A stretch of DNA of 61,082 nucleotides from Halorhabdus salina (GTDB lineage: Archaea; Halobacteriota; Halobacteria; Halobacteriales; Haloarculaceae), in NCBI RefSeq assembly GCF_013839425.1, contig NZ_JACDNP010000013.1, forward strand, positions 1 to 61,082, in the 5' to 3' direction. The translations under genes and the position numbers were made by a program. The notes below the pieces were generated by a model, which worked only from the letters and a program-made list of their open reading frames with translations, had not been told where the DNA came from and did not search any database. Positions 29,831 to 35,545 of the stretch are shown here, one piece after another. Within the stretch, counting starts at the first letter, position 1; every line of letters begins with the position of its first letter.

Positions 29831-34218
<4,388 letters not shown>

Positions 34219-34244
34219 CTAGCTCGTTGTTTCGTCTCATGGGT

Positions 34245-34272
34245 CTTAAACCTCTCGTGCGCGCGCGCACGA
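34245..34272 (-). promoter_or_regulatory. gyrB promoter: TATA-like box preceded by 18-bp alternating GC palindrome
   Basis: Read on the minus strand, a perfect palindrome TCGTGCGCGCGCGCACGA (34272 down to 34255) is followed within 5 nt by GGTTTAAGAC, a haloarchaeal-type TATA element (TTTAAG at 34245-34250), and about 33 nt later by the gyrB ATG. The core GTGCGCGCGCGCAC is a 14-bp purine-pyrimidine alternation, the class of sequence most prone to left-handed or cruciform DNA under negative supercoiling. Confidence 0.6.
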
Positions 34273-34474
34273 AAGCTGATACATGTGAAGAAATAATACA
34301 AACAATTTATTTATATTGAGGGCGAACGTCGGTGTATGCTGGGAATTATGTTCGGTGTCGACGACCTTGAAGTCAAAAGGGCGTTGACAGTAATGAACCC
34401 CTCGATTCCCGTGAGGGGGCAAGTGGGTGGGGAACGTGCAACCAGTCGCGAGCTGTTCAGAGGTGGCCTACGCG

Positions 34475-35545
34475 ATGACTGAAATCGACGATTCGACGCT
34501 TGCGACACAACTAGAGCGATTCGGGCTTTCGGAGACAGAGATACAGACATATCTGGCCGTGCTGGAAAACGGCGAAGCCAAGGCTAGCACGATCGCGGAT
34601 GCGACCGGCGTTTCGAAACGCTACGTCTACAGCGTCTGTGAGGAACTCGAAGAACAGGGGTTCGTCGAGGTCAACGATCACGTCGTCCCGACGAAAATCC
34701 GCGCCAAACCCCCCGAAGAAGTCATTGAGCTTCTCTCGAACCGCCTCGAAGAGATTCAACCGGCTCTCCAACGGCGGTATTCTGCGTCCGAAGCCAGGCC
34801 CCAGCGCTTCGATGTGATCAAGTCCCGTGTTACCGTCCTCAAGCGAATCGGCGAGTATATCAGCCAGGCTGAGCGCCGCATCGGCTTGTCGATTCCGTAT
34901 TCGTATCTCTCCCGCGTCGCGGAGGAACTCCAGGACGCCGTCGATCGGGGTGTCCTCGTGTTGGTGTTGGTGACGAACGCCGAACCAGATCTAGAAGAAC
35001 TGGCGGGCTACGACCGGCCAATCGCCAGTGTCGTCCGGAGTTGGGACGCGTCTATTCCCGTTATTCTCGGCGTCGACCGGGATCTCGGGATCGTCTCGTC
35101 TTCGGAGATGATGACGACGGCCAACAGTGACGAGCAGGCGATTTCGCTAGTACAGGAACGGATCGTCCCGACGCTGTATGGCTCGTTCCTGGCGAATTTC
35201 TGGGTTTCGGCCGAGCAAGTGCAGGTTATCGATCCAGCTCCACTTCCCCAAACCTACCAGAGTTTCGAACAGGCAGTCTTCGAAGCCACACTCCGTTTAC
35301 GGGATGGCGACGCGATCGATGCCTGCGTCGAGGCCTTGCATAGTTCCGAAGACAGCGAGACTGAAACGGTTACCGGGCGGGTAGTCGACACACGACAGGG
35401 GATCGTCGATCCGATTAGCAACGAGTTCCCGATCGAGCACTCGTTGATCATCGAGACGGACGAGGGTGAAATCACGGTCGGTGGGACAGGTGCGTTCCTC
35501 GAAGAGTACGAGGCCCGGACGGTCACGCTCGAAGCCGCTGATTAG
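34475..35545 (+). CDS. TrmB family transcription regulator
   Basis: 356 aa from ATG 34475. An N-terminal winged helix (LERFGLSETEIQTYLAVLENGEAKASTIADATGVSKRYVYSV) is followed by a coiled linker (about 75-100) and the TrmB C-terminal sensor domain with the phospholipase-D-like half (IGLSIPYSYLSRVAEEL) and a beta barrel. TrmB proteins bind sugars and control sugar metabolism in archaea. Placed divergently from gyrB and just upstream of top6BA, it could instead or also control topoisomerase genes. The upstream 160 nt include an AT-rich TTTATATTG at about 34308-34316 as a likely TATA region. Confidence 0.88.
   Translation: MTEIDDSTLATQLERFGLSETEIQTYLAVLENGEAKASTIADATGVSKRYVYSVCEELEEQGFVEVNDHVVPTKIRAKPPEEVIELLSNRLEEIQPALQRRYSASEARPQRFDVIKSRVTVLKRIGEYISQAERRIGLSIPYSYLSRVAEELQDAVDRGVLVLVLVTNAEPDLEELAGYDRPIASVVRSWDASIPVILGVDRDLGIVSSSEMMTTANSDEQAISLVQERIVPTLYGSFLANFWVSAEQVQVIDPAPLPQTYQSFEQAVFEATLRLRDGDAIDACVEALHSSEDSETETVTGRVVDTRQGIVDPISNEFPIEHSLIIETDEGEITVGGTGAFLEEYEARTVTLEAAD

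Follow-up and report, generated by a model that had tools for sequence, protein, structure and literature searches.

Archaeal gyrase was acquired by transfer from bacteria, and the gyrase promoter of Halorhabdus salina, in which a palindromic run of alternating C and G lies close to the TATA box, raises the question of whether such a sequence lets gyrase expression respond to the state of the DNA itself. Archaeal gene regulation through DNA topology is still poorly understood (PMC9348778). We asked whether the run is a conserved part of the gyrB promoter, whether it belongs to gyrase alone, and which of its properties, base sequence, alternation or symmetry, appears to be preserved.

Architecture of the gyrB promoter

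The window, a stretch of 61,082 nucleotides, is an entire contig of a 2.86-Mb haloarchaeal genome. The features that bear on the question are as follows.

29831-32314, minus strand: gyrA, 827 aa, directly 3' of gyrB and overlapping it (from the ORF list)
32299-34212, minus strand: gyrB, 637 aa (PF00204 match, E = 6e-62, and relatives)
34220, minus strand: predicted transcription start, an A, giving an 8-nt 5' UTR (column +30 and haloarchaeal promoter spacing)
34230-34231, minus strand: predicted -10 WW element, AA here and TA in most relatives (column +20)
34245-34250, minus strand: TATA-like box TTTAAG of gyrB (aligned position across 116 gyrB promoters)
34251-34255, minus strand: spacer AGAGG, 5 nt from core to TATA box, carrying the G and R of a conserved CGnGR
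34256-34265, minus strand: conserved core CGCGCGCACG, at -15 to -6 counted from the initial T of the TATA box (column statistics)
34255-34272, read on the plus strand: 18-bp perfect palindrome TCGTGCGCGCGCGCACGA, containing the core (read from the sequence and by scan)
34256-34271: uninterrupted purine-pyrimidine alternation CGTGCGCGCGCGCACG, 16 bp
34475-35545, plus strand: TrmB-type regulator (PF11495, PF01978), followed by top6B and top6A on the same strand

At related loci gyrA relatives adjoin gyrB as well. A 47-codon ORF without a Pfam match (34336-34476) precedes the TrmB-type gene, its stop codon overlapping the start of that gene (ATGA).

The perfect palindrome of 18 bp and the 4 nt (34251-34254) that separate it from the TATA-like box are as an earlier note on this DNA had described them; the alternation, which the note had put at 14 bp, runs without interruption for 16 bp. 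Counting from the T that opens the TATA box, column +20 is A in 99% and column +30 is A in 80% of the aligned promoters (n = 116), and the latter, together with haloarchaeal promoter spacing, makes 34220 the likely transcription start, placing the core at about -45 to -36. The promoter, with its TTTAW and an A at the -10 position, matches the basal haloarchaeal type, which consists of a BRE (CGAAA), a TATA box (TTWT) and a -10 WW element (PMC4983044). CGnGR may be a variant of the BRE, and the spacer AGAGG may be the whole or a part of that element. The octamer CGCGCGYR, in contrast, does not belong to the basal promoter as known and is seldom found away from gyrB. CG occurs at -7/-6 in only 5% of ordinary promoters (a small sample, n = 37) whereas it is invariant in gyrB.

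The palindrome by itself is unremarkable. In a background of 461 kb taken from this genome and a close relative, we found 12 perfect palindromes of at least 18 bp, about one every 40 kb, so that the symmetry constitutes weak evidence of function. Alternations of at least 16 bp were rarer, with 3 in the same 461 kb, two of which are those of gyrB.

A CG-rich block is conserved across haloarchaeal gyrB promoters

The regions upstream of gyrB were gathered from named genomes as well as across the genus, family, order and phylum, and lined up on the TATA box. Of 154 distinct haloarchaeal sequences, about 152 had a CG-rich alternating block, and in 117 a spacing of exactly 5 nt separated it from the TATA box, both counts being biased upward by a placing score that rewards alternation (the exact-pattern search described below is free of this bias). 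The two clear exceptions were a stand-alone gyrB paralogue (L020) and a promoter that retains only TGCG-N5-TTTA (L028). The block family has the consensus CGCGCGYRCG, usually 5 nt before TTTAW, and the 116 sequences with standard spacing give CGCGCGYRCGnGRnnTTTAW, with G at -4 in 94% and R at -3 in 96% of them. Over the 154 promoters the median alternation is 12 bp, compared with 16 bp in this window. Haloferax species carry the block; it was absent from 12 gyrB promoters taken from archaea elsewhere in the phylum and from two deep-branching lineages within the order (L313, L314). Conservation at this promoter position is far beyond chance, and reaches far wider among related gyrB promoters than had been expected.

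Two peculiarities of the gyrB genes themselves came to light during this collection. In a close relative, gyrB was matched as three pieces in different frames (G003:C1:769228-771136), which suggests frameshifts or assembly errors. In several other haloarchaea (G007, G056, G067, G119, G136 and others) gyrB lies in open frames of about 1200 codons with only partial matches, as expected for genes that contain inteins.

Conservation of the block could be thought to preserve the palindrome, which as a cruciform or as the operator of a dimeric protein would then be the functional unit. Perfect or near-perfect dyads do occur in Halorhabdus and in Halapricum-like promoters, for example GGTCACGCGCGCGCGTGACC and GTCTCACG-N6-CGTGAGAC, but alternating CG is self-complementary in any case, and we detected no convincing covariation between arms on any of 13 dyad axes across the family (best z 2.4). 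The palindromes of Halorhabdus and its neighbours may thus follow from alternating CG or represent a local refinement, and we consider a function of the symmetry itself very improbable.

The block is specific to the gyrBA operon

A search of 243 genomes for the exact pattern CGCGCGYRCG-N5-TTTAW returned 110 matches in 107 genomes, among them the one in this genome, which extends from the core through the TATA box (34246-34265, minus strand). Of the 94 matches with known gyrB coordinates, 91 had the same orientation as gyrB and stood 32-49 nt before it, and 3 lay elsewhere. One of these three (in G313) is spaced like a promoter ahead of an ORF which, judged by eye, resembles a replication protein A; no promoter context was obvious for the other two. 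The reversed control pattern gave roughly ten matches in the same 243 genomes. With a sequence profile, the gyrB site of this genome scored 24.5 bits and the next site about 13, and only five 12-bp alternations at the same distance from a TTWA were found outside gyrB in seven genomes of the genus.

These searches bear directly on the simplest explanation, that a GC-rich genome has by chance produced a run of CG. The frequency of 18-bp palindromes agrees with it, but a fixed position, about one copy per genome, the few matches to the reversed control and an alternation that persists even in a locus of 47% GC all speak against it, and the exact-pattern search together with the placement of its matches at gyrB refutes a chance origin, the probability of which we regard as negligible.

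The neighbourhood of gyrB offers two other possible owners of the block. On its other side gyrB directly adjoins top6B in many genomes and, among the loci examined, a TrmB gene in Halorhabdus only, while in most Natrinema-like and Halorubrum loci no top6B was found within the flank; the block is kept whichever neighbour adjoins gyrB, and the element thus belongs to gyrBA. We accordingly rejected the TrmB-type regulator as a partner, since it adjoins gyrB in this genus alone, and likewise a role of the block in a divergent top6B promoter, since the block is kept where top6B is not adjacent, holds a fixed spacing to the gyrB TATA box, and differs from the conserved element of top6B. Several haloarchaea have in addition a stand-alone gyrB paralogue with neither gyrA nor top6B nearby (L291, L292, L293, L294, L020), and the block was absent from all five of these. 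The proposal that the repeat is part of the gyrB promoter was thus well founded, and it is specific to the gyrBA operon.

The top6B promoters carry an element of their own, approximately TTCACTTTCACYnnGGTGGCGA, shortly before the TATA box (L004, L006, L008, L010, L014, L018, and likewise L021, L030, L031 and others), so that each of the divergent topoisomerase operons has its own element.

Base sequence is constrained, with mixed support for alternation

The earlier note had stressed the alternation within the palindrome, a repeat of the kind that flips to Z-DNA or a cruciform under negative supercoiling. If alternation alone were decisive, the block could sense torsion with no dedicated protein: when negative supercoiling is high, a left-handed CG block beside the BRE and TATA box would hinder TFB and TBP and absorb torsion, switching gyrB off, and upon relaxation it would return to B-DNA and gyrB would be transcribed.

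The columns of the alignment argue otherwise. Positions -7/-6 are CG in 116 of 116 gyrB promoters. At -9/-8 the same promoters have TG (83), CA (18), TA (12) and CG (1), against about 14 occurrences of CG expected from the columns (Fisher p 4e-12, a value inflated by shared ancestry, the CA and TA variants being nonetheless present in several families). The avoidance of CG, the best Z-forming step, at this position points to base reading or to a requirement for a flexible YR step, and the conservation of base sequence argues for reading by a protein over Z-DNA propensity alone. The fixed spacing to the TATA box likewise speaks against a pure torsion sensor. Furthermore, the alternation runs are no longer than expected from independent columns, and substitutions in the upstream flank show no preference for transitions and do not favour alternation.

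Other observations favour a structural role. The alternation is nearly perfect from -15 to -6, and of 25 substitutions in the core outside -9/-8, 15 are transitions, compared with one third expected (p 0.006). Divergent promoters in which sequence or spacing has changed keep long alternations of 22 bp (L311), 18 bp (L312) and 18 bp (L194), one of them at the locus of 47% GC, and these fit a structural role better than protein reading. We estimated the Z transition at a superhelical density of -0.040 here and between -0.040 and -0.05 in 115 of 116 promoters, using a simple model with strict alternation, a 4-kb domain, no salt term and approximate energies; at such densities structural switching is physically plausible. 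A single copy per genome would also suit a dedicated gauge.

Support for selection on alternation is therefore mixed. Of the structural switch that had been proposed, the Z-DNA form remains plausible by this estimate, and the cruciform form finds no counterpart in the covariation of the arms. We consider a B-Z torsion sensor acting without a dedicated protein a serious rival to protein reading, though a rather unlikely one, and treat as somewhat more doubtful the broader proposal that almost the whole class carries, at about one copy per genome, a B/Z gauge poised near normal superhelical density with no dedicated sensor protein.

A candidate feedback element of archaeal gyrase

Novobiocin strongly induces gyrB in Haloferax according to PMC9348778, whose figure of as much as 20-fold covers gyrB and bop together and is credited there to Holmes and Dyall-Smith (1991) and Yang et al. 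(1996); Halobacterium gyrase is also stimulated by the drug (PMC3184054). These reports, from haloarchaea other than the organism studied here, imply that haloarchaeal gyrase is under feedback, and the earlier suggestion that gyrase may be controlled by its own product is consistent with both. As the block is nearly confined to gyrBA and touches the BRE, it is a natural candidate for the published response. It is most likely the cis-element of gyrase feedback, its link to the novobiocin response being one that we infer.

The block might instead activate or strengthen the gyrB promoter constitutively, with no relation to supercoiling. Archaeal activators do act at such sites upstream of the BRE; the confinement of the block to an operon whose expression reportedly responds when gyrase is inhibited (PMC9348778, PMC3184054) counts against such a role, which we judge unlikely.

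Our preferred reading, held with moderate confidence, is that CGCGCGYRCG-N5-TTTAW is a gyrBA-specific promoter element, immediately adjoining the BRE/TATA region on its upstream side, that is read base-specifically by a protein and mediates gyrase feedback. The conservation, the position, the specificity for gyrB and the constraints on individual bases are evident in the sequences themselves. The reader would be either a general factor, such as TFB on an extended BRE, or another regulator, and through it less negative supercoiling would lead to more gyrase expression. Alternation of C and G may lend the element some sensitivity to torsion without being the sole property under selection, and a combination of protein reading with a B-Z gauge is possible. 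Against protein reading it counts that, to our knowledge, no protein is known or has been proposed to bind the gyrB block, and that a single conserved target per genome is unusual for a regulator.

A close counterpart of the block is the RY box of Halobacterium bop, reportedly described by Yang et al. in 1996. It is about 11 bp long and extends into the TATA region of a gene that supercoiling activates. Both are purine-pyrimidine alternations near a haloarchaeal TATA box, that of bop having been linked to supercoiling and non-B DNA. Unlike the RY box, the block at gyrB precedes the BRE, ending 4-5 nt before the TATA box with no overlap, is CG-rich and class-wide, and is subject to base-specific constraints; in contrast to the supercoiling-activated bop, moreover, gyrB is induced by gyrase inhibition.

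The feedback logic is shared with bacteria, in which the promoters of gyrase (Menzel and Gellert 1983, cited in PMC3184054) and topoisomerase I (PMC4770202) respond to the supercoiling that their own enzymes set. Sensing in bacteria is attributed to promoter sequences around the sigma-dependent start, whereas the candidate described here, a conserved block, precedes an archaeal BRE and TATA box.

We found no published description of the gyrB block in the literature searched, where an older remark on a single species is possible. Taken together, a whole class of archaea carries a private, nearly invariant promoter element for one operon, gyrBA. As an exact 10-bp target with natural variants, it opens the way to tests of archaeal gyrase feedback, and of sensing by DNA structure versus sensing by protein, in Haloferax, which carries the block and is genetically tractable. 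The block is thus a strong, testable candidate for the switch through which these cells control the twist of their own DNA.
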